From assembly GCA_013203955.1 (NCBI GenBank), contig JABMOY010000126.1, positions 42,003 through 106,002 on the forward strand: 64,000 nucleotides of DNA, read 5' to 3'. The number at the start of each line of letters is the position of its first letter. The first letter of the stretch is position 1. Position numbers and translations under genes: made by a program. The notes under the pieces are model-generated. The model made no database searches and was not told where the DNA came from. It saw only the letters and a program-made list of their open reading frames with translations. Shown in pieces: positions 1,454 to 12,565 of the stretch. Origin of the DNA: Rhodospirillales bacterium. Its GTDB lineage: Bacteria > Pseudomonadota > Alphaproteobacteria > Rhodospirillales > Casp-alpha2.

Positions 1454-2488
1454 ATGAACGAAATTCCCGATTTGATAATTGGCGGCAAGACGCACCGCAC
1501 GCCCTTTCGCGGGGACGATCTTCCCCTTGTGGCGCGGCTTTGCCGGGCTGCCTTTCATGTCTACAAGCGCCGATGGGCGAAACGGCTGTTTAAGAAGCCG
1601 ACCCGGATGTTTTTTGATTTTTGCCATCAGGTGTTGAAATTGGGTGGGCGTGGGCAAATGGTCTTGGAACGGCCCGACGGGCCCGTGCGCCTGGGTTTCG
1701 ATGCTCATCATATCCATTTCCGTGGCGTTTATGACGGTAACCCGGACGGCAACGAGCCGGAAGTGACGACGTTTATGGAAACCATGCTGCGCGGCGACCG
1801 CGTTTTATTCGATATCGGGGCAAATTTCGGCTACCTGACCCTTTATGCCGCCACCATTGAAGGGTATTCGGGGGCTATCCATTCCTTCGAGCCCATCGAC
1901 AATACCTTTAAGGACCTGAATGACCTTGTCACCCAGGCCGGTTATGAAGGCCGGGTCACATGCCACCAGATCGCGCTTTCAGATCACGACGGGACGGCGA
2001 AGATGGCTTTCGATCCGGTTAATACGGGGCTTTCGCGTTTGGATGGCGACACCAGTGGCGGCAAGGAAGTGGCATTGGCCAAGCTCGACAGCCTTGACCT
2101 GCCGGCGCCGTGGCTGATGAAGGTGGATGTTGAAGATCACGAACTTAAGACTTTTCAGGGGGCGGAGGCCTTGCTCAAAAAAGAAAAGCCGTTTCTGATT
2201 TTCGAAAACTGGATTTCCAAGACCGAACCGCAGACGACCCTGGGGCCGCTTCGCTATTTGGAAGGGTTGGGATACGTCCTTTACAACCCTTTGTGGCGAA
2301 TTTCCGATCAGGCGGGGAGCTATATTTGGCCCACTCCATCTCCGCCTTGGCCCTATGAAACCCGGGCCCTTGCCTTGGTCCGGTTCCCGGCTGAAGGACG
2401 TTTTCCGTTTGCCGATCAAATCAATGTCGTTGGCTGCCACAGAGACCGCATTGTTGAATTGCAGGAAGAATTTTCAAGCTGCGACTGA
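1454..2488 (+). CDS. FkbM family SAM-dependent methyltransferase
   Basis: This 344-residue protein has a class I methyltransferase core of the FkbM type. DIGANFGYLTLYAA near residue 120 is the SAM-binding glycine motif, followed by SFEPIDNTF, the acidic ribose-binding region. LMKVDVEDHELKTFQGA near residue 225 is the characteristic FkbM segment. FkbM enzymes O-methylate hydroxyls on sugars or polyketides, and many sit in surface-polysaccharide loci. That suits this site, which opens a block of glycosyltransferases and radical SAM genes on the same strand. No clear ribosome binding site is visible before the ATG. The acceptor is unknown. Confidence 0.85.
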   Translation: MNEIPDLIIGGKTHRTPFRGDDLPLVARLCRAAFHVYKRRWAKRLFKKPTRMFFDFCHQVLKLGGRGQMVLERPDGPVRLGFDAHHIHFRGVYDGNPDGNEPEVTTFMETMLRGDRVLFDIGANFGYLTLYAATIEGYSGAIHSFEPIDNTFKDLNDLVTQAGYEGRVTCHQIALSDHDGTAKMAFDPVNTGLSRLDGDTSGGKEVALAKLDSLDLPAPWLMKVDVEDHELKTFQGAEALLKKEKPFLIFENWISKTEPQTTLGPLRYLEGLGYVLYNPLWRISDQAGSYIWPTPSPPWPYETRALALVRFPAEGRFPFADQINVVGCHRDRIVELQEEFSSCD

Positions 2489-2590
2489 GCCGCTGGCCAG
2501 ACGGAATACAACCACCGCTTGGGCTGCGCAAATTAGAATGTTTTAGAAATCGTTCCATGACGAAGAACATTTACGAGGGTATCTTATGGG

Positions 2591-2609
2591 CGGCAAAAAC
2601 TTTTTGCCG
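2591..2609 (+). repeat. 9-bp inverted repeat in leader of DUF6165 gene
   Basis: CGGCAAAAA and TTTTTGCCG form a perfect inverted repeat around one central base. It lies five bases before the GAGGAGA ribosome binding site of the following TTG-started gene. It could fold in the mRNA or act as a protein site. It is not a classical terminator, because no T-run follows. Confidence 0.55.
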
Positions 2610-2626
2610 ATCTGAGGAGAAAGGCA

Positions 2627-3019
2627 TTGGCAGCAAGCATTTCCGTTGAGGTTTCCGCCGGGGAATTGATCGACAAGATTACTATTCTCGAGATCAAGCT
2701 TGAGCGGATTAAAGATTCCAGCAAGCTTGAAAACGTGAAGCGGGAGTACGAAACCTTGACGGCTTCCCGGGACGGCGCCCTTGAAACTTCCGGAGAGCTG
2801 AATGGGTTGACGGCGAAATTAAAGGCCGTTAACGAACGCCTTTGGGAAATCGAGGACGATATTCGCCAGTGCGAGCGCGATAAGGATTTCGGTGAAAAAT
2901 TCGTCGAGCTGGCGCGTGCCGTTTACGTGACCAATGACGATAGGTCCCGTTTGAAACGGGAAATAAACGAGCTTCTGGGCTCTGCCTTGATCGAAGAAAA
3001 ATCTTATGCCGCCTACTGA
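2627..3019 (+). CDS. DUF6165 family protein
   Basis: This small acidic, highly charged protein of 130 residues begins AASISVEVSAGELIDKITIL and matches what I know of the DUF6165 family, which has no established function. It is probably largely helical, with a heptad-like central part (ITILEIKLERIKDSSKLENV). The start is TTG, chosen because GAGGAGA lies six bases upstream and the family N-terminus begins here. The next gene starts at the base after its stop codon, so the two are translationally coupled. Members I am aware of lie beside glycosyltransferase genes, as here, which suggests an accessory role in surface glycan synthesis (inference). Confidence 0.75.
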   Translation: MAASISVEVSAGELIDKITILEIKLERIKDSSKLENVKREYETLTASRDGALETSGELNGLTAKLKAVNERLWEIEDDIRQCERDKDFGEKFVELARAVYVTNDDRSRLKREINELLGSALIEEKSYAAY

Positions 3020-4159
3020 GTGCGGAACGCCGTGATAAAATTTTACCGCATTCTCGACTGGTGGCTGAACCGAAAACGCCGCCAACAGCCGCGCTCGGGC
3101 AAGGCCAAGGGTGTCCTGTTGATTTCAAGTGGCGGGCTGGGCGATACGGTCCTGTTCGCCCATGTCATCGAACGTTTCCTCGGATGTGCGGAAAAAGACG
3201 AACCGGTAACGGTGTTGCTCCGGTCCGATGCCATGAAGATGGCGTTCCTTCTGCCCCAGGGTGTTCAGGTCATCGGTGTCGATTTTTATCGCTTGCGCAA
3301 GGATCTGGGCTACCGGCGGGAAATCACGGATAGTTTTTTCAGCGCCCATTACCGTCTCGTCGTTCATACGGATTACCTTCGCCACCCGGATTTGGACGAA
3401 GCCCTTGTTGCCGCGGCCATGGCCGCGGAGGCCGTCGCCATGAAGCCTCGGCCTTGGCGCAAATATGACGCCCGGCTCAACCAAAACCGACGGCTGTATG
3501 GGCGGCTTTATGACAGTGGCGCGCCGAATATGGATAAGGTCCTGAGGTGGTCACGGTTCGCGGATTGGCTTTTGGATATGGAGCGCACCCCGCCCATCGC
3601 CGCCCTAGACCCGGCGCAGTTGCCACCGGCCGCCCAAGAAGGGCCTGAAGTCGTCATCCAACCTTTTTCGGCGGTAAAGGCCAAGCAAAGCCCCCCTGCC
3701 CTGTATCGGCGGATAATCGATGCTCTGCCGGAAGGCACACGGGTTGCCATTACCGGCACTCAGCGCGACCTTGAAGACAACCCGGAATTCAAGAGTCTTT
3801 TGGACTTGGCCGGAGTTGAGTTCGACGCATCAAGCTTCGCCGAATTGGTCCCCATATTGCTGTCGGCGAAATTAGTGATCTCGGTCGATACCGCCTTGAT
3901 GCATTTGGCTGTCGCGGTCGGCGCGCCGACGTTGTGCCTGGCCAGCGCCGCCTATGTTGGAGAAATAGTCCCTTATGATCCAGCCATTACGCCCGAAAAT
4001 GCCCATTTCCTTTATACATCGATGTCCTGCGAGGGATGTTTGGGGGACTGCATTCATCCCTTCCAGAACGGCATGTTCCCGTGCGTTGCAAAATTGGACA
4101 AAAACCAAGCCGTAAAGAAAGCGAGAGAAATTATGTCAATGACCGGGGGTCACGTTTGA
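3020..4159 (+). CDS. Glycosyltransferase family 9 (heptosyltransferase-like)
   Basis: This 379-residue GT-B fold protein is of the heptosyltransferase type. The N-terminal GVLLISSGGLGDTVLFAHVI is the acceptor-side glycine loop. In the C-terminal half, VISVDTALMHLAVAVGAPT corresponds to the conserved D(T/S)xxMHLA nucleotide-sugar site. A cysteine-bearing segment, CEGCLGDCIHPF, near the C-terminus recalls the Cys-rich tail seen in some GT9 proteins. GTG is the likely start, directly after the preceding stop. The 3' end overlaps the next ATG by one base (TGATG). It probably adds a heptose or related sugar to a lipid-linked or LPS-core acceptor at the inner membrane face. Confidence 0.85.
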   Translation: MRNAVIKFYRILDWWLNRKRRQQPRSGKAKGVLLISSGGLGDTVLFAHVIERFLGCAEKDEPVTVLLRSDAMKMAFLLPQGVQVIGVDFYRLRKDLGYRREITDSFFSAHYRLVVHTDYLRHPDLDEALVAAAMAAEAVAMKPRPWRKYDARLNQNRRLYGRLYDSGAPNMDKVLRWSRFADWLLDMERTPPIAALDPAQLPPAAQEGPEVVIQPFSAVKAKQSPPALYRRIIDALPEGTRVAITGTQRDLEDNPEFKSLLDLAGVEFDASSFAELVPILLSAKLVISVDTALMHLAVAVGAPTLCLASAAYVGEIVPYDPAITPENAHFLYTSMSCEGCLGDCIHPFQNGMFPCVAKLDKNQAVKKAREIMSMTGGHV

Positions 4160-5679
4160 TGCCAACCTCTTCTGTTTGGTCGAAGACGACAGGTTTCTTC
4201 TTTAAAAATAGGATTTGGATTTTGGGCGCGATGGGAGCGCTGTGTTTCCTGGATGTGGCTGGAATGGGGCTGGCTTACCTAATGTATCCCGGCTATTTGG
4301 ACCATGGCGAACCCAGCCTAGCCATGATTTCCTGGCGGCTTCTGGATGGATTTCCCGCCTATCCCGGTTTTGATGATCCCGGTCGGATCAGCAACGTATA
4401 TGGCCCCCTTACATTTCTTCTTCACGCCATTTCCTTTTACTTTGCCGGACCTTTCGTGGCGACGGGAAAGGCGTTGTCGATTGTGGCGGCATTGTTAATT
4501 CCGGTCTTGATGTTCATGGACCATCGGCGCCACGGTTTCAGTGTTGGCGCGGTCGCGATGATCTTTGGCACCGCGTTCGTTTTGTTCACGCTTCCTATTT
4601 CCATTTTGAATCGGCCGGATTCCTTCATTGCTCTTTTGGCCGTGATAACGGTTTGGGCAAAGAATGCCAGCTTGCCGGGTCGCCCAGAATGGGGAAAGAC
4701 GATCCTGATTGGCGTTTGCGGCGGGCTTGCTGTTGGGTTCAAAATTCACGCGGGCATTTTTCTGGCGCCTGTGGCCTTGTTTCATTGCTTGGATCGGGAA
4801 AACGGCCTTAGGCCTTTTTTTGCGGTAGGGGCCGTAGGTATTTTTGTAGCTTTGCTGCCTTTCGCCCTGCCCGTTTTCCCGCTTGCGGATTATTTGTCGT
4901 GGTTCGGTCCGCTATTGGGCAAGCAGGCTCCCGTGAATTCCTACGGAAAGCCTTTCCGTTACGCCCTTCTTTATTTGGTTCCAGTGCTGTTGCTTTTTGC
5001 CTTGTCCCGGAAGCAAGAAACAGTTCCTTCCAGGCTTGCCGAAAGGGCTTATCTTGGGGCCTATCTTGTGTGCCTGGGGGCCGCCATTTATGTCGGCTCA
5101 AAACCGGGCGGCGGTATCCGTTACATGTTTCCCTTTATGCCAATGACGGTTGATTTCATCCTCGGCCACGGTCGCAGGGTTGAAAAACGCTCCAGACTTG
5201 CCTGGTCTGCGATTGGGGTGTTCATGGCCATTATGTTGGCGATAAGCTTGCCGACTCAAAAACGCTTTCAACGCACCCTTCATTGGGACGAAGCGCAACA
5301 GGTCAGCCGTGAAGTTCGGCAAATCATGGCGGCTTATCCCGGTAAGACAATGGAAATGGGCTTGGGAGAAAATGACATCAACTACTGGAGGACGTATTTC
5401 AAGACGTTGCTGGTTCTAAACGGAAACCCCTACAGTTTGGATTCGGCGGTCGTCATGGAAACGTCTTATCTTAAAATTCCCCTGACGAATGCCGATTTAG
5501 AAATGATCCGCAGGTGCGCTACCGATATATGGCTTATTCCGAAGGGCGAACGGCCTTTCGAAATGATCGGATATTACGGCGTTCCCGTTTATGACGGGGC
5601 CTTTAAGAAGGTTTTTGTTGACAGTTATACGAAATCCCGGAGTTTAAAATTTTTCGATATCTGGGCCTGCAAAAAGTAG
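4159..5679 (+). CDS. Multi-pass membrane protein, GT-C glycosyltransferase-like
   Basis: This 506-residue protein has about ten hydrophobic segments (for example IWILGAMGALCFLDVAGMGL and LLYLVPVLLLFALS). A luminal loop after the first segment contains LDHGEPSLAMISWRLLDGF, resembling the acidic catalytic loop of polyprenyl-phosphate-sugar-dependent GT-C enzymes. A soluble tail of roughly 130 residues follows the last segment. The ATG overlaps the previous stop, so I reject the longer ORF-track start inside the GT9 gene. The family assignment rests on topology and context rather than on a recognised signature. It ends two bases before the convergent radical SAM gene. Confidence 0.65.
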   Translation: MPTSSVWSKTTGFFFKNRIWILGAMGALCFLDVAGMGLAYLMYPGYLDHGEPSLAMISWRLLDGFPAYPGFDDPGRISNVYGPLTFLLHAISFYFAGPFVATGKALSIVAALLIPVLMFMDHRRHGFSVGAVAMIFGTAFVLFTLPISILNRPDSFIALLAVITVWAKNASLPGRPEWGKTILIGVCGGLAVGFKIHAGIFLAPVALFHCLDRENGLRPFFAVGAVGIFVALLPFALPVFPLADYLSWFGPLLGKQAPVNSYGKPFRYALLYLVPVLLLFALSRKQETVPSRLAERAYLGAYLVCLGAAIYVGSKPGGGIRYMFPFMPMTVDFILGHGRRVEKRSRLAWSAIGVFMAIMLAISLPTQKRFQRTLHWDEAQQVSREVRQIMAAYPGKTMEMGLGENDINYWRTYFKTLLVLNGNPYSLDSAVVMETSYLKIPLTNADLEMIRRCATDIWLIPKGERPFEMIGYYGVPVYDGAFKKVFVDSYTKSRSLKFFDIWACKK

Positions 5680-5680
5680 A

Positions 5681-7246
5681 TTAAGAGCCCGGTCGATTTT
5701 CCGGCTGGTCGTATGTGTCGCCCTTCTTCCATTCCGCGTTCCAATCGATAAGACCCGTCGGTTTGGCGAAAACTTCTTTTGCCGAATATTCGACGCCTTC
5801 CTCATCGCGGTAGATGTCCGTTTGACCCTTGGCCATGCCGCCAATGAAAACGTCACGAGAACTCCAGAAGTACTGCAGGGACTGCCAAAAGGGGATGTCG
5901 AAGAATCTAATATCTTCCCAATGATTCAGGTATTGAAGCGGCATTAATATTTTAGCCCACCGGCTGGATAATATGTTTTTTGCGAACCTGAGACAGAATG
6001 GAAACCTGCCGAACATGGTGGCGGCCCAATTCATGTTGGCGATTTTGTCGAAATCGCCGTGGATGTCTTTGGCCTTGTAAGTGAACTCCCCGGTTCCCTC
6101 GCTCAAATCGTTTCTGATGGCATAATTCGCCAACTCGGTCCCCTTATACATCTTTAGGATGCTTACTCTGATGCCGTAAGGTTTAAGCGAACTGCCGAAA
6201 CGGACGCTTTCGATGGCTGCTTCCAAGGATTCATTGGGCAGGCAGAACATGATGTTCATAATGAATTTGAATTTGTGTTTTTTGAGAAGGTCTGTGACCT
6301 CGACGTATCGGGCATTGGTGATTTTTTTGTTGAGCATGTTGATGCGGGTTTCCTCTACCCCGCATTCCAACCCGAAGGTCCCGCCACGGCAACGTCCGTC
6401 GACCATTGCTTCAATTATTTCCTCGTCCAGGCTGGTGACTTCTATATTGCACGACCAGTCCAGGTTGAATTGTTTCTTGTAGCGCTTTGAAAATTCCTTC
6501 ACCCAGTTTTTATCCAAGTTGAAGATGTCGTCGCAGAAATGGACGCGCCGGGTCGGGTATTTCTCAAGAACCCGTTCAACCTCTTCCAAGGCATATTCGA
6601 TGCTGTGGCGGCGGAAGACCTTGCCCTTGCCTTTGTACATGTCGAAATAGGTGGGCTCGAAACAATAAGCGCATTTATAGGGGCAGCCGCGGGTAGTGAT
6701 AAATCGCTTGACGGCGAAATTCGCCATGAGCGGATATTTGTCATAGTACAAACTGCGGTCCGGAAACGGATACTTATCCAGATTTTCCTCGGGCGGCAGC
6801 AATGAGTTGCGCATCCATCCCTTTTCCGTTTTCACCAGCAGGCTATTAACGTCGGAATAATCCTCGCCGGCTTCAATTCGGTCCATAAGCGTCAAAAGCG
6901 CTTCTTCTCCGTCTCCCATGCAGATGATATCGGTGCACCCGTATTTCATGACGTCTTCTTGCATAAACATGCAATGCGGTCCGCCCCAGATAACCTTGCG
7001 GGTGGTTTTTTCCTTGATGAGTTTGGAAACGGGGCGGAATTGCTCAACTTGGGGCGTCATCACCGAAAAGCCGACGAGGTCCGGGTCAGCCGCTTCGATA
7101 TAATCGATAAGTTTATCGAAGCGATTGAAATCCTGGAGAAGCGTAAGGTCGACCTCATGCCCGTTCGCTTTCAAATACGAACTCAGGTACATGATGCCCA
7201 AGCCTTCGTTCAGGAAATTGTCGCTAACGAAAAGTATCTTGGCCAT
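5681..7246 (-). CDS. Cobalamin-binding-type radical SAM protein (A)
   Basis: This 521-residue protein has three visible parts. The N-terminal Rossmann-like domain of about 160 residues is of the B12-binding type (ILFVSDNFLNEGLGIMYLSS), but I see no classical DxHxxG motif. The radical SAM core follows with TTRGCPYKCAYCFEP near residue 190, giving the CxxxCxxC iron-sulfur ligands, and then the SAM-contact region GGTFGLECGVEE. An extended C-terminal domain of about 130 residues completes it. It is paralogous to the upstream gene: both continue after the cluster motif with MYKGKG. The family methylates or rearranges unactivated carbons. The substrate is unknown; the surrounding glycan genes suggest a sugar or lipid. 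Confidence 0.88.
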   Translation of the reverse strand: MAKILFVSDNFLNEGLGIMYLSSYLKANGHEVDLTLLQDFNRFDKLIDYIEAADPDLVGFSVMTPQVEQFRPVSKLIKEKTTRKVIWGGPHCMFMQEDVMKYGCTDIICMGDGEEALLTLMDRIEAGEDYSDVNSLLVKTEKGWMRNSLLPPEENLDKYPFPDRSLYYDKYPLMANFAVKRFITTRGCPYKCAYCFEPTYFDMYKGKGKVFRRHSIEYALEEVERVLEKYPTRRVHFCDDIFNLDKNWVKEFSKRYKKQFNLDWSCNIEVTSLDEEIIEAMVDGRCRGGTFGLECGVEETRINMLNKKITNARYVEVTDLLKKHKFKFIMNIMFCLPNESLEAAIESVRFGSSLKPYGIRVSILKMYKGTELANYAIRNDLSEGTGEFTYKAKDIHGDFDKIANMNWAATMFGRFPFCLRFAKNILSSRWAKILMPLQYLNHWEDIRFFDIPFWQSLQYFWSSRDVFIGGMAKGQTDIYRDEEGVEYSAKEVFAKPTGLIDWNAEWKKGDTYDQPENRPGS

Positions 7247-7284
7247 GGGCTTCTTTCAGAAGGCTTATGAGTAAAACGGTTTCG

Positions 7285-7334
7285 GGCCAACAAATCATAT
7301 ACGATTTATTTTTTTATGTTTGGGTTTGTTGGCC
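7285..7334 (-). repeat. 10-bp inverted repeat between paralogous radical SAM genes
   Basis: GGCCAACAAA (7285-7294) and TTTGTTGGCC (7325-7334) are perfect inverted copies separated by 30 AT-rich bases. The element fills most of the gap between the two minus-strand radical SAM genes. It could be an RNA stem that adjusts the ratio of the two products, or an operator. No U-run follows it in the direction of transcription, so a simple terminator is unlikely. Confidence 0.6.
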
Positions 7335-7351
7335 AAATGCCGTATTGAGAT

Positions 7352-8806
7352 TTAGTTCCGGTGCGCCGACGTCAGAATCTTGTACCCCGTCCATGCCAGA
7401 AGCTTGAACGGGACTGGGGCCGGATAGATCCGGCGGTGAAGCATCCACCCATAGGTGAACCGGTAGACAAGGCCGAGAAATTTTTTGCCTAAACTTTTCT
7501 TGTAGATTTTCTCGATCAGCTCGATATGACGCTCCAACCAAGGAAATTCGACGAGCAAGGGAAAGACGACCTGATAACTGTGCAGGCGGTCCTTTAGTTT
7601 CTGTGGGAAATTGAGGACGGTTTCCGAATACTGCCCGCCCCAATTTTCATTCTCCTCATCCAGGTAGCCGTTATCCCGCGCGTACTTTGTCAAGCCGACA
7701 CCGGGATAGGGCTGGAAGATGGAGGCATCCGCGTAATCGACCTTGCAATCCTGATTAATGCGGACGGTTTCTTTGAAGGTTTCTTCCGATTCGCCCGGCA
7801 ACCCCAGCATGTTCAGGCAGTACGATTTGATGCCGTGCTTGCGTAGGATGTCGAACGTTTCGTAAATTTGCTCGTCCTTCATGCTGCGCAGCATGACCTT
7901 ATTGCGGATATCGGCGTTGCCCGATTCGATGGCGATGCAAACGGCGTGAGCGCCGGATTTTTTCAAAGTCTTGGCGTATTCTTCATCGACCATGTTGGGC
8001 CGAACAAGGGCGACATAGGGAAGCCCGACTTCTTTGGGGTAGACTTCGGCGAATTCTTCCAGCCATTCCCGCTTGATACCGAAAACGTCGTCATGGAATT
8101 TAAGAAATTTTGACGGATAACGGGCGATGGTGGTCTGGATTTCCTTGATCATGTAGGGCACGGATTTGGTACGGACGATATCACCCTTGCCCTTGTACAT
8201 TTCATTGAAGGCATGATTGAAACAATAGGTGCATTTATAGGGGCAGCCGCGACTGGCGAAAAAGCCCCGGATGGGCATGTTTTTAAGCCCGTAACTTTCT
8301 TCATACATCAGGGCTTTGTCCGGCGGCGGAAGGGTATCCAAATCATCAATCAGGCGGGTAATGCCGTTTTTCTTAATGGACCCGTCGTCGAGCTTGAAAT
8401 GCATATTCGTGGTATCAAGCATCTTGTCGCTGCCGAAGTTATTCAGGAAATCCCTGATCGCCATGTCCCCTTCGCCGACGCAAATGGCATCGACACCGTC
8501 TTTGTTGATGTACTCCTGGAAAAAGGTCGGGTGCACCCCGCCGAAAATGGAATAAGCGCCGGATTCTTCCTTCAGGTGTGAATTAATTTCCAGAAACTTA
8601 GCCGCGTCCGGCGACATCACCGAATAGGCCAGGACATCAGGCTTGAAGTCCTTAAGCTTTTTGACCGCTTTTTTTGGGTCCTTTTCATATTCGATAAGGA
8701 TGACCTCGTGCCCGGCTTCTTTCGCGGAGGCCGATATCACGGGGATGGAGTAGCTTTCAACGACACCGATGCGGTCGGTGACCATGGCAACGCGAACCTG
8801 ACTCAA
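7352..8806 (-). CDS. Cobalamin-binding-type radical SAM protein (B)
   Basis: This 484-residue protein has the same architecture as protein A. It has an N-terminal B12-type domain (VAMVTDRIGVVESYSIPVIS), the cluster motif ASRGCPYKCTYCFNHAF near residue 175, then MYKGKG, and later the SAM-contact segment AVCIAIESGNADIRNKVM. The C-terminus is shorter than in protein A. The gene precedes protein A on the same strand and diverges from a third radical SAM gene across about 230 bases. A canonical DxHxxG cobalamin ligand is again missing, so base-off binding without a protein histidine is likely (inference). The reaction is unassigned. Confidence 0.88.
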   Translation of the reverse strand: MSQVRVAMVTDRIGVVESYSIPVISASAKEAGHEVILIEYEKDPKKAVKKLKDFKPDVLAYSVMSPDAAKFLEINSHLKEESGAYSIFGGVHPTFFQEYINKDGVDAICVGEGDMAIRDFLNNFGSDKMLDTTNMHFKLDDGSIKKNGITRLIDDLDTLPPPDKALMYEESYGLKNMPIRGFFASRGCPYKCTYCFNHAFNEMYKGKGDIVRTKSVPYMIKEIQTTIARYPSKFLKFHDDVFGIKREWLEEFAEVYPKEVGLPYVALVRPNMVDEEYAKTLKKSGAHAVCIAIESGNADIRNKVMLRSMKDEQIYETFDILRKHGIKSYCLNMLGLPGESEETFKETVRINQDCKVDYADASIFQPYPGVGLTKYARDNGYLDEENENWGGQYSETVLNFPQKLKDRLHSYQVVFPLLVEFPWLERHIELIEKIYKKSLGKKFLGLVYRFTYGWMLHRRIYPAPVPFKLLAWTGYKILTSAHRN

Positions 8807-9036
8807 CTGCTCATCCTTTTTCTTTTCTTTGGGCTAAATACCCAAGAAGGTTGTTTAATTAGAGCCTCATATTACCTAACCTAATTACTCAGAAAAACCC
8901 TAAACTTGTTCGGGTTCAAAGCATGGGCCTTTCGGGGGCCTGGGGCTTGAGTTTTTCGAATAGCCGCCATCCCGGAGATGTTGTATACGGCTGGCAAGAC
9001 ATCTTTTCCAGAATTTTTCGGAATCTCCTTTATTTC

Positions 9037-10551
9037 ATGGCAAAAAACAAGGCAATGACGACGGAGCGTCTGGATCTTCTGCTAGTTAATCCGGGCGGTC
9101 GCGGGAAGATTTACCAGGAATTGGGCGACGAACTGTCGGCGGTGGAACCGCCGCTTTGGTGTCGGCTGATCGGGGGCTATGTCCGTGACCAGGGCTTTAA
9201 AATCGAAATCCTCGATTCGGAAGCCCTAAACCTCCCCCCCGCCGCCATTGCCGACAAAGTAGCCACTTTGAACCCACGTCTGGTGGCGATGGTCGTTTTT
9301 GGTCATCAGCCCTCCGCCTCAACCCAGCAAATGATGGGCGCCGCCGAGGCCTGCCGGGCGATCAAGGCCGAAACCGAAGATATCCCGATCATTATGGTCG
9401 GCGGACACGTGTCGGCCCTGCCCGAGCGCACCCTTGACGAGGAGCCTGTTGACTTCGTTTGCAAGGGAGAAGGCCCGGTGACGGTGGTGCAGCTTCTCGA
9501 AGCCATGTCCCAGGAAGGCGAAATCGATTTTGAGGCCATTGAGGGCTTGGTGTGGATGCGTGACGGCAAACCGGTGGTAAATCCATCACCGCCCTTGATC
9601 AAGGATTTGGACGCAGACCTTCATGGAAACGTCTGGGAACTGTTGCCGATGGACAAATACCGGGCCCATAACTGGCAATGTTTCGGCGATCTGGAGTCGC
9701 GGGAACCTTATGCCTCGATTTATACGTCCTTGGGGTGTCCCTATAAATGCGCGTTTTGCTGCGTTAATGCGCCGTTTGACGTCAATCGCTACCGCATGCG
9801 GAGCCCGGAGGCCGTCGTCAAGGAAATTGATTTTCTCCATGACACATACGGCATCAAGACCTACAAAATTATCGACGAGATGTTCGTGCTTAACGAACGT
9901 CATGTTCTGGATATCTGCAATCTTCTGATCGAACGCAATTACGGCCTCAACATCTGGGCCTATGCCCGCATCGATACCGTCAAGCCGAAGATGCTGGATA
10001 AGCTGAGGGACGCCGGCATCCGCTGGTTGGCGCTGGGGATCGAATCCGGGTCCGAGCATGTGCGTGATGGTGCCGAAAAGGCCTTCAGCCAGGAAGACAT
10101 CACCGACATCGTCCGCGACATCCAGAAAGCCGGCATCAAAGTCATCGGCAATTTTATTTTCGGCCTACCCGATGATAATCAGGAAACCATGCAGCAGACC
10201 CTCGACTTGGCGATTGAGCTCAACTGCGAATTCGTCAACCTGTACTCAGCCATGGCTTATCCGGGTTCTCCCCTTTATGTTGACGCGGTGACTAAGAACT
10301 TGCCCCTGCCGGATCAATGGTCCGGGTTTTCGCAACATAGCTTTGACTGTCAGCCCCTGCCGACCGATCACCTGAGTGCCGGCGAAGTCTTGAAGTTCCG
10401 GGATGACGCTTTTCACACCTATTTCTCCAACCCACGGTATCTGGACATGGTGACACAGGCTTTCGGTTGGGAAACCCGCCGCCATATCGAGGATATGGCC
10501 AAACACCGCCTTAAACGGAAAATTCTGGATGAACTTGATGCGGCGGAATAA
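9037..10551 (+). CDS. Cobalamin-binding-type radical SAM protein (C)
   Basis: The protein has 504 residues from the ATG at MAKNKAM. The ORF track begins 38 codons further upstream, and MTTERLDL, six codons later, is another possible start. The B12-type domain shows LLVNPGGRGKIYQELG and VGGHVSALPERTL. The radical SAM cluster motif is TSLGCPYKCAFCCVNAPF, and the SAM-contact region includes RWLALGIESGSEHVRDGA. It is less similar to proteins A and B than they are to each other. Its stop is three bases before the sugar-kinase ATG, so the two form an operon. That links the chemistry to an activated sugar pathway (inference). Confidence 0.88.
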   Translation: MAKNKAMTTERLDLLLVNPGGRGKIYQELGDELSAVEPPLWCRLIGGYVRDQGFKIEILDSEALNLPPAAIADKVATLNPRLVAMVVFGHQPSASTQQMMGAAEACRAIKAETEDIPIIMVGGHVSALPERTLDEEPVDFVCKGEGPVTVVQLLEAMSQEGEIDFEAIEGLVWMRDGKPVVNPSPPLIKDLDADLHGNVWELLPMDKYRAHNWQCFGDLESREPYASIYTSLGCPYKCAFCCVNAPFDVNRYRMRSPEAVVKEIDFLHDTYGIKTYKIIDEMFVLNERHVLDICNLLIERNYGLNIWAYARIDTVKPKMLDKLRDAGIRWLALGIESGSEHVRDGAEKAFSQEDITDIVRDIQKAGIKVIGNFIFGLPDDNQETMQQTLDLAIELNCEFVNLYSAMAYPGSPLYVDAVTKNLPLPDQWSGFSQHSFDCQPLPTDHLSAGEVLKFRDDAFHTYFSNPRYLDMVTQAFGWETRRHIEDMAKHRLKRKILDELDAAE

Positions 10552-10554
10552 TAC

Positions 10555-11559
10555 ATGATTATCAGCCGCACCCCTTTCCGCGTGTCGCTTTTCGGCGGTG
10601 GTTCTGATTATCCGAAATGGTACCTGCAACACGGCGGCGCTGTTTTCGGCTTTGCCATCAATAAATATTGTTACCTTTCTGTCCGTCCCTTGCCGCCGTT
10701 TTTCGAGTATCGAAACCGGATAGTCTATTCGAAAGTCGAAATGGTGAATGAAATTTCCGAAATCGAGCATCCCGCCGTCCGGGGAGTCCTCGAAGATATG
10801 GGAATCAAAATCGGTCTTGAAATCCACCACGACGGTGACCTTCCTGCGCGTTCCGGGCTGGGCTCATCCTCATCGTTCACGGTCGGGCTTCTCAACACCC
10901 TATCGGCGATGAACGGAAAAGAATTAAACAAAAAGACCCTGGCTCAGGAAGCGCTGCGCATCGAACAACAAGTGATTAAGGAACATGTCGGCTCGCAAGA
11001 CCAGATCTGGGCGTCATATGGGGGAATCAACCGCATCGAGTTTTTAAAGAACGGCGATTTTGAGGTCCAACCTGCGGGCATTTCGGAAGCCCGGCAGAAA
11101 ATTCTTTTGGATCATCTGCTTTTGTTTTTCACGGGCTTTTCACGATTTGCGCCGGAAATTGCAAAAAAGCAGATCGAAAATCTCGATAAGCGCGAAAAGC
11201 ATTTGCAAGCCATGACCGGCCTCGTCGATGAAGCTTTGGGCGTGGTTAAGTCCGATACCCGCCCGATCACCGAAATCGGCGAAATGCTTCGTGAAACGTG
11301 GCGGCTCAAACGGGAGTTGGCGGATAACGTTTCGACGCCTGAAATCGACGAAATCTATGACGCCGCCCTGGAAGCGGGCGCCATTGGCGGGAAGCTGCTG
11401 GGCGCGGGCGGCGGTGGTTTCATGCTTTTGTTCGCTAAGCCGGAAAATCAACCGGCCGTTATTGAAAAGCTGAAAGGCTTAATCCGCGTAAAATTCGGTA
11501 TTGATGATGTGGGTTCAAAGATTGTCGTCTTTGAGCCGGCGGGACTGGAAAACCGCTAG
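10555..11559 (+). CDS. GHMP-family sugar kinase, HddA-like
   Basis: This 334-residue protein is a GHMP kinase. The N-terminal TPFRVSLFGGGSDYPKWY is typical of the D-glycero-alpha-D-manno-heptose 7-phosphate kinase branch. DLPARSGLGSSSSFTVG near residue 100 is the ATP-binding motif 2, and GGKLLGAGGGGFMLLF near residue 280 is motif 3. It would phosphorylate the anomeric carbon of a sugar phosphate before nucleotide activation. Heptose 7-phosphate is the best guess and agrees with the GT9 heptosyltransferase-like gene upstream. No isomerase, phosphatase or nucleotidyltransferase partner lies in the window. Confidence 0.8.
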   Translation: MIISRTPFRVSLFGGGSDYPKWYLQHGGAVFGFAINKYCYLSVRPLPPFFEYRNRIVYSKVEMVNEISEIEHPAVRGVLEDMGIKIGLEIHHDGDLPARSGLGSSSSFTVGLLNTLSAMNGKELNKKTLAQEALRIEQQVIKEHVGSQDQIWASYGGINRIEFLKNGDFEVQPAGISEARQKILLDHLLLFFTGFSRFAPEIAKKQIENLDKREKHLQAMTGLVDEALGVVKSDTRPITEIGEMLRETWRLKRELADNVSTPEIDEIYDAALEAGAIGGKLLGAGGGGFMLLFAKPENQPAVIEKLKGLIRVKFGIDDVGSKIVVFEPAGLENR

Positions 11560-11593
11560 CCCTTTCGCTAACGTCTATCCCTGAAGGAACTTC

Positions 11594-12565
11594 ATGGCGA
11601 AACAAACCGCACCGGCGAAATCAAATAAGAAACCAACGTCCAAAAAGGCGCTGGTTTCCGTCGTCCTGTCATTCCGCAATGAAGAAGACGTTATCCCGGA
11701 ATTGATCAGGCGGCTGGAAACAGTTCTTAAAAAGGAATCGGTCGATTACGAGCTGATATTCGTCAATGACGATTCCACGGATGGGTCCTTGTCGCTGTTG
11801 AAAAAAAACGCGGCAAAAAACAAAAACATTAAGATCATCAATATGTCGCGGCGGTTCGGGGTTTCTGAGTGCGTCTTCGCGGGCATCGCCCACGCATCCG
11901 GCGACGCTATCATTACCATGGACGCCGACTTGCAGGATCCACCCGAGGTCATGCCCGAATTGATCGCCAAATGGCGGGACGGCGCCGAGGTGGTGTACAC
12001 CGTTCGCACCCATCGGGACGGCGAAAAGCCCCTGAAGATGTGGCTGACGCGCATGGCTTACCGGGCCATCAATGCGTCTTCTGAAGTCGATATGCCGGTT
12101 AACGCCGGCGATTTTAGGCTGCTCAGCAGGATGGCCTGTGAAAAATTGCTGGAATTGGGGGAACTTGACCCCTATCCCCGCGGATTGGTTCCGTGGATCG
12201 GCTACCGCCAGGAACCTGTCTATTACCGGCGCGAAGCCCGGGTCGCGGGAACCGCCCATTTCTCGCTTTTCGGTAGCCTCAACCCCTACAAGACTTTCAT
12301 TTCGGGCCTGACATCGTTTTCCATGGCGCCGATCTTCCTAATCTTTTTGATCGGCGGCGGCATTTCCGCCCTTTCTTTGGCCGTCATGGTTTTTTCGTTT
12401 GTTTTTGGCGATGGATCGTCTTTGTGGGCAACGTTCTTAGTTTTTATGTGGGGCTCATTGCTTTTTGCCATCGGTTTCGTCGGCATCTATGTCGGGCGCA
12501 CATACAAAGACGTTCGCGGCAGGCCGCGCTATATCGTCAAGGATACCATCGGTTTTGGGGAATGA
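11594..12565 (+). CDS. Glycosyltransferase family 2, polyprenyl-phosphate sugar transferase type
   Basis: This 323-residue protein has a lysine-rich start, then the GT-A domain with SVVLSFRNEEDVIPELI, the metal-site region ITMDADLQDPPEVMPEL near residue 115, and GDFRLLSRMACEKL. Two hydrophobic helices near residues 235-300 anchor it in the membrane. This layout is that of the dolichyl/undecaprenyl-phosphate mannosyl- or glucosyltransferases (DPM1, GtrB, ArnC). It probably charges a polyprenyl phosphate with a sugar used by the GT-C-like protein of this block. GAAGGA lies six bases before the ATG. Confidence 0.85.
   Translation: MAKQTAPAKSNKKPTSKKALVSVVLSFRNEEDVIPELIRRLETVLKKESVDYELIFVNDDSTDGSLSLLKKNAAKNKNIKIINMSRRFGVSECVFAGIAHASGDAIITMDADLQDPPEVMPELIAKWRDGAEVVYTVRTHRDGEKPLKMWLTRMAYRAINASSEVDMPVNAGDFRLLSRMACEKLLELGELDPYPRGLVPWIGYRQEPVYYRREARVAGTAHFSLFGSLNPYKTFISGLTSFSMAPIFLIFLIGGGISALSLAVMVFSFVFGDGSSLWATFLVFMWGSLLFAIGFVGIYVGRTYKDVRGRPRYIVKDTIGFGE

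Follow-up and report, generated by a model that had tools for sequence, protein, structure and literature searches.

Described systems closest to the locus

In Campylobacter jejuni, GDP (guanosine diphosphate)-heptose is modified by HddA, HddC, Cj1427, a ColD-type C3-dehydratase and Fcl-type C4-reductases (PMC10680097, PMC10440746), and Cj1427 together with the ColD-type C3-dehydratase makes GDP-3-deoxy-4-keto-heptose in vitro (PMC10680097). In the pathways to yersiniose and other C-branched sugars, a 4-keto-3-deoxy nucleotide sugar is offered to thiamine diphosphate (ThDP) enzymes of the YerE-like, alpha-keto-acid-dehydrogenase or transketolase type (PMC12247030). We analyzed a stretch of 64,000 nucleotides (the window, C108:42003-106002) from the metagenome-assembled genome of a Rhodospirillales bacterium (3.14 Mb, 245 contigs). 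It holds a glycan island with three genes for predicted cobalamin (B12)-dependent radical S-adenosylmethionine (SAM) enzymes, rSAM-A, rSAM-B, and rSAM-C. We propose, with a probability of about 0.5, that rSAM-C provides the radical, cobalamin-dependent reaction in a conserved pathway to a GDP-linked, 3-deoxy, 4-C-branched heptose-type sugar, and is most likely a methylase.

The rSAM-C gene set shared with the Campylobacter pathways a homologous kinase, nucleotidyltransferase, C4-dehydrogenase, and C3-dehydratase, and many rSAM-C loci also carried a Fcl-like reductase. However, the Campylobacter pathways as described in the two papers use neither a ThDP enzyme nor a radical SAM enzyme (PMC10680097, PMC10440746), whereas the rSAM-C set has both. 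In this genome, moreover, the five other pathway genes lie 46 kb from rSAM-C. As in the yersiniose-type pathways, a 4-keto-3-deoxy nucleotide sugar would be offered to a ThDP enzyme of one of the same three classes. The rSAM-C set differs in its homologies, which suggest GDP-heptose, and in its additional cobalamin radical SAM enzyme; neither radical SAM enzymes nor heptoses nor GDP-sugars are mentioned in the review of the branched sugars (PMC12247030).

A functional precedent for this enzyme class acting on sugar carbons is given by MoeK5, GenK, and GenD1, cobalamin radical SAM C-methylases of antibiotic sugar moieties (PMC8992657), but these belong to antibiotic pathways and are likened to rSAM-C by enzyme class. 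HpnJ, AprD4, TsrM, MgmA, and OxsB have their fold and domain order in common with rSAM-C, although its identity to the solved enzymes of this set is about 15–22%, and it scores far below the NCBIfam equivalog cut-offs. A literature search that reached few subscription papers found no description of this gene set and, for the biosynthesis of O-antigen, flagellin glycans, heptoses, and branched sugars, no account of a radical SAM enzyme, in agreement with the initial annotation, which knew of no described pathway with this gene set. The rSAM-C gene set thus represents a widely conserved and apparently undescribed pathway.

Genes recurring with rSAM-C

A scan of 85,462 species genomes gave 342 loci encoding relatives of rSAM-C, and neighborhoods were counted in the best 80 of these 342. 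The 80 loci encoded proteins 54–80% identical to rSAM-C and came from Alpha- and Gammaproteobacteria, Nitrospira, Acidobacteria, Chloroflexota, Omnitrophica, and others. Partners were counted within 9 kb of rSAM-C, and many loci were cut by contig ends. A homologue of the HddA-like kinase was present in 65 of the 80 loci, a short-chain dehydrogenase/reductase (SDR) in 51, a DegT-family (ColD-like) protein in 41, a nucleotidyltransferase in 38, and a Fcl-like reductase in 23. The usual gene order was ThDP enzyme, DegT, SDR, rSAM-C, nucleotidyltransferase, and kinase, with Fcl sometimes present before rSAM-C and NUDIX sometimes after the kinase. The same gene set was found on a Solidesulfovibrio magneticus plasmid, and a plasmid of Azospirillum lipoferum carried rSAM-C with the kinase and NUDIX genes.

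The coupling of rSAM-C to the sugar kinase, suggested earlier from the window, was also seen across the family. In the window the kinase starts 3 nucleotides after the rSAM-C stop codon, and a GHMP kinase with at least 45% identity lay within 1.5 kb of rSAM-C in 53 of 78 loci. Beyond close relatives, DUF6165, which had been proposed as a second neighborhood marker, was not conserved next to rSAM-C. The expected glycan context accompanied rSAM-C in 68 of 78 loci, and the other 10 showed no kinase, SDR, ColD-like, or nucleotidyltransferase gene.

Most loci encoded the ThDP enzyme as an alpha/beta pair of the pyruvate-dehydrogenase type, others as a split transketolase, and three as an acetolactate-synthase-like protein. 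One of these three classes was present in 34 of the 41 loci having a ColD-like gene. All three are known or proposed to branch keto-sugars (PMC12247030). A second rSAM-C subgroup, 50–56% identical, was also observed (L046, L057, L058, L059, L138, and L142). Two of its loci, L138 and L142, have genes for a split transketolase, a 2-hydroxyacid-dehydrogenase-like protein, and an IlvD-like dehydratase nearby, which hints at a different product.

The source genome carries the whole rSAM-C pathway gene set. An operon for E1 alpha, E1 beta, ColD-like protein, SDR, and nucleotidyltransferase is located on the window's contig (C108:85-5019, L175), outside the window and 46 kb to the left of rSAM-C. It sits at the contig end, beside a tRNA gene cut off by that end. 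Within the genus, the eight genomes with the genes of this five-gene operon include all seven that have rSAM-C, and the two genomes without them also lack rSAM-C.

At the level of the order, 297 genomes were compared. Both rSAM-C and the SDR were present in 41, rSAM-C only in 9, the SDR only in 16, and neither in 231, giving an odds ratio of 66. The Fisher p value of 2e-28 is inflated by shared ancestry, although the association spans many genera. Among genomes with a close rSAM-C, 23 of 24 had the SDR. Genomic context is strong evidence tying rSAM-C to a sugar-nucleotide pathway.

Predicted identity of the partner enzymes

The best NCBIfam match of the kinase was HddA, at 126 bits against a cut-off of 600 (NF049969). 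In the alignment it keeps the WcbL catalytic residues R13, D22, S118-120, Q162, and D163, whose mutation kills WcbL, a HddA-type heptokinase. The DegT protein was examined through its orthologue at L054, which shares 62% identity with the copy encoded here. The orthologue scored 402 bits to ColD, the GDP-4-keto-6-deoxymannose 3-dehydratase, and its SHHIATMEGG segment aligned to the same ColD motif, in which His-His stands at the position of the Lys of aminotransferases. In the ColD family, His replaces the Lys that binds pyridoxal phosphate (PLP) in aminotransferases. By this motif the DegT protein is predicted to be like a ColD-type C3-dehydratase and not an aminotransferase of the usual kind.

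The SDR was compared through its orthologue at L053, 71% identical to the copy in this genome. Over residues 6-313 this orthologue matched PDB 6vo6 with 387 bits, much higher than any other score. We take 6vo6 as the structure of Cj1427, which in C. jejuni is the C4-dehydrogenase of GDP-heptose. The putative heptose identity of the sugar rests on three homologies.

Enzyme class, gene start, and conservation of rSAM-C

All three open reading frames annotated initially as B12-type radical SAM enzymes lie where they had been placed, and each has both expected Pfam domains, PF02310 (62–74 bits) and PF04055 (66–78 bits), above the gathering scores. The CX3CX2C cluster motif reads RGCPYKCxYC in rSAM-A and rSAM-B and LGCPYKCxFCC in rSAM-C. 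By domains and motif, the three proteins are predicted cobalamin-dependent radical SAM enzymes, and the AlphaFold2 models of rSAM-A and rSAM-C had such enzymes as their top PDB matches. No protein of the three attained any NCBIfam equivalog cut-off. Scores for rSAM-C, rSAM-B, and rSAM-A were 181, 118, and 97 bits to HpnJ (TIGR03471, cut-off 577.6 bits) and 77, 67, and 61 bits to the AprD4 diol-dehydratase family (NF033070, cut-off 500 bits), respectively. An identity with the hopanoid enzyme HpnJ was rejected at these scores, and no hopanoid genes were noted in the island. The DxHxxG motif is missing from all three, as had been observed before. Since structurally characterized cobalamin radical SAM enzymes bind B12 base-off, with no His ligand (PMC13331322), this is normal for the class and was rejected as an anomaly.

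The ATG at 9037, which gives a protein of 504 amino acids, is probably the true start of rSAM-C, and not 8923, because the orthologues begin at the equivalent MTRNQ or MTENQ. Among 55 aligned rSAM-C sequences, the three motif cysteines were invariant, as was a fourth directly after the motif (CX3CX2CC). About ten polar positions were also invariant or nearly so (R203, H205, N206, D274, E275, N299, R305, S426, Q427, and H428, numbered from ATG 9055), as was a GxQPSAST loop; the polar set suggests one conserved substrate. Against rSAM-A, rSAM-B, and three further relatives, the GxQPSAST loop adds seven residues after strand 3. The loop at this place in OxsB and TsrM contributes the residue that lies at the lower face of cobalamin (PMC13331322).

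The rSAM-C model had a predicted local distance difference test (pLDDT) score of 90, with TsrM, AprD4, MgmA, CysS, TokK, and OxsB as the nearest solved folds. This model comparison supports the class and not the reaction. The rSAM-A model was of moderate quality (pLDDT 69), with TsrM, MgmA, and AprD4 nearest; its core was confident and its C-terminal 140 residues were not, so that little was gained beyond the fold class.

The rSAM-A and rSAM-B pair

The MYKGKG extension noticed in both rSAM-A and rSAM-B was found again in their orthologues, one of which has MYKGLG. In the tree the two proteins share a supported clade, in which more distant B-like proteins stand between them. As rSAM-B is nearer to enzymes of other genera than to rSAM-A, the pair is not a recent duplicate. 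Counting the source genome and its relatives, rSAM-A was present in 4 of 61 genomes and rSAM-B in 3 of 61, all within the genus (three other genus genomes for rSAM-A and two for rSAM-B). Neither had a close relative in the 336 other genomes of the class that were sampled.

Both genes were absent from the islands of G009, G006, and G004 and from all more distant rSAM-C loci. In G009 and G006, rSAM-C directly follows the GT-C gene (GT, glycosyltransferase) with gaps of about 165 and 50 nucleotides, respectively, so the A/B pair is an optional cassette, restricted to the genus. G004 has rSAM-A alone, on another contig. In G003, all three radical SAM genes are adjacent and divergent, as here, in a locus split over two contigs. 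G008 keeps rSAM-A, rSAM-B, and the kinase intact, but only the first 20-odd and the last few codons of rSAM-C are left between rSAM-B and the kinase (L045:12130-12493), the scar of an internal deletion. Therefore, the A/B pair does not depend on rSAM-C at this site. G008 also retains a 54% identical rSAM-C relative elsewhere in its genome.

Distant homologues of rSAM-B (33–35% identity) were found in G044, G028, G039, and L079. All four lie among glycosyltransferases, methyltransferases, or sugar kinases, as expected from the initial annotation, and the role of rSAM-A and rSAM-B is therefore probably glycan tailoring.

Proposed pathway

From the observed domains, gene linkage, orthology, and co-occurrence, we infer the reactions, the sugar, the order of the steps, and the choice of methylation over another radical reaction. 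The HddA-like kinase would phosphorylate heptose or heptose-7-phosphate at C1 and the nucleotidyltransferase would produce the GDP-sugar. The Cj1427-like SDR would then oxidize C4, and the ColD-like PLP enzyme would take off the C3 hydroxyl. Up to the ketone this chain has a precedent, because Cj1427 and a ColD-type enzyme were shown to act in vitro (PMC10680097). The ThDP enzyme, here of the pyruvate-dehydrogenase E1 alpha/beta type, would put a two-carbon branch on the C4 ketone. At some point along this chain, rSAM-C would modify an unactivated carbon of the branched sugar or of its precursor. Methylation is most likely because it is the commonest reaction of the class (PMC11659888) and has the precedent of MoeK5, GenK, and GenD1 (PMC8992657). 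The GT2 protein would load the sugar onto polyprenyl phosphate, and the GT-C protein may transfer it from this carrier to a periplasmic acceptor or surface glycan. The optional, genus-specific rSAM-A and rSAM-B would further tailor the glycan.

There are many B12-dependent radical SAM enzymes, and most are uncharacterized. rSAM-C gives a large, strictly conserved family a concrete pathway that can be tested, as in vitro assays or a close precedent exist for relatives of its partner enzymes. If the proposal is true, radical carbon chemistry is added to the biosynthesis of bacterial surface sugars, and unusual branched heptoses are predicted in Magnetospirillum, Azospirillum, Marinomonas, Alteromonas, Nitrospira, and others. 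More tentatively, the product of this phylum-crossing pathway may be a surface monosaccharide of a new class, namely a GDP-activated 3-deoxy heptose that has a ThDP-built C4 branch and a radical, B12-dependent carbon modification. The three exchangeable branch enzymes would then give different branches in different bacteria.

Alternative explanations

Several observations weigh against the proposed role of rSAM-C. Ten loci have no kinase, SDR, ColD-like gene, or nucleotidyltransferase near rSAM-C, two of them still having a ThDP enzyme, and in five of the ten a HAD phosphatase alone adjoins rSAM-C. These five (L083, L090, L092, L097, and L099) encode rSAM-C homologues of 67–69% identity; either their sugar genes are elsewhere or they form a branch with a different role. 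The co-occurrence test ignores phylogeny, and sixteen genomes of the order have the SDR without rSAM-C. The kinase and nucleotidyltransferase are far under the HddA and HddC equivalog cut-offs, so a heptose is not certain. A GmhA-like isomerase in this genome scores below its own cut-off. As one genus member has the isomerase but not the pathway, its presence was discarded as an uninformative discriminator for heptose. The five HAD-phosphatase loci would fit an rSAM-C that acts on a lipid carrier, protein, or peptide and is encoded in glycan islands by chance. We consider this doubtful, as the operon with sugar kinase, nucleotidyltransferase, and sugar-nucleotide enzymes is repeated across phyla and the genome-level link to the SDR is strong.

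The radical reaction itself could differ within the same branched-sugar pathway. Methylases cannot be told from AprD4 or OxsB on the basis of the fold, and rSAM-C might perform an AprD4-like diol dehydration or rearrangement, or an OxsB/HpnJ-like ring contraction or extension. AprD4, a sugar 1,2-diol dehydratase, gave the top target-normalized TM-score (0.76) and the best PDB sequence match, and HpnJ was the best NCBIfam match. However, the HpnJ score is far under its cut-off, the AprD4 sequence match is limited to the radical SAM half whereas rSAM-C has a canonical B12-binding domain, and methylation is the reaction seen most often in the class; this possibility appears less likely. The initial annotation had instead joined the three radical enzymes with the HddA-like kinase and DUF6165 in one pathway modifying one heptose or its lipid carrier. 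Their adjacency here and in G003 agrees with that, but the islands and distant loci without the pair, the solitary rSAM-A of G004, and the inconstant DUF6165 do not. By this distribution and the G008 deletion scar, a single pathway for the three radical enzymes was rejected, and the broader scheme is largely refuted and very improbable. The heptose-type modification remains the best reading for rSAM-C, given its kinase and GDP-heptose-type enzymes, and not for the three enzymes as a set.

Glycan island and other genes

The island (Table 1) is flanked on both sides by housekeeping genes. To the left, two 3-hydroxyisobutyrate-dehydrogenase-like genes are accompanied by a long series of housekeeping genes (thymidylate kinase, DNA polymerase III delta-prime-like, metG, tatD, and mazG), and to the right are hflX, hfq, trkA, and ntr genes; these names were assigned partly by sequence reading. 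Relatives of the source genome in the named collection were mostly Rhodospirillales and unclassified Alphaproteobacteria.

Table 1. Genes of the glycan island (1454-12565) in window coordinates
Feature	Position	Strand	Evidence
FkbM-family methyltransferase	1454..2488	+	PF05050, TIGR01444
DUF6165 protein	2627..3019	+	PF19662 48 bits
GT9 heptosyltransferase-like	3020..4159	+	PF01075 41 bits
GT-C-like multi-transmembrane protein	4159..5679	+	7 hydrophobic segments; kept in relatives' island
rSAM-A, B12-binding + radical SAM, 521 aa	5681..7246	-	PF02310 74 bits, PF04055 66 bits
rSAM-B, B12-binding + radical SAM, 484 aa	7352..8806	-	PF02310 62 bits, PF04055 78 bits
rSAM-C, B12-binding + radical SAM, 504 aa	9037..10551	+	PF02310, PF04055; orthologue starts
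GHMP (HddA/WcbL-like) anomeric sugar kinase	10555..11559	+	best NCBIfam match HddA
GT2, PgfS/ArnC type, two C-terminal transmembrane segments	11594..12565	+	208 bits to PgfS

Family matches confirmed the FkbM, DUF6165, GT9, GT2, and HddA-like kinase genes described before. The GT-C-like protein matched no family in the Pfam and NCBIfam searches and was recognized by its hydrophobic segments; it is a probable acceptor-side glycosyltransferase. The GT2 score to PgfS is below the cut-off of 500 bits, so the protein is no equivalog. Its GT2 domain followed by two C-terminal transmembrane helices (247-300) is the layout of a polyprenyl-phosphate glycosyltransferase, which it probably is, and the gene follows the kinase in close relatives too. 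No cobalamin riboswitch was found within the window.

Elsewhere in this genome, thirteen further B12-radical-SAM-like open reading frames were observed on contigs C149, C42, C123, C182, C194, C72, C74, and C200. Contig C149 alone has three of them, beside asparagine-synthase-like and carbamoyltransferase-like genes.

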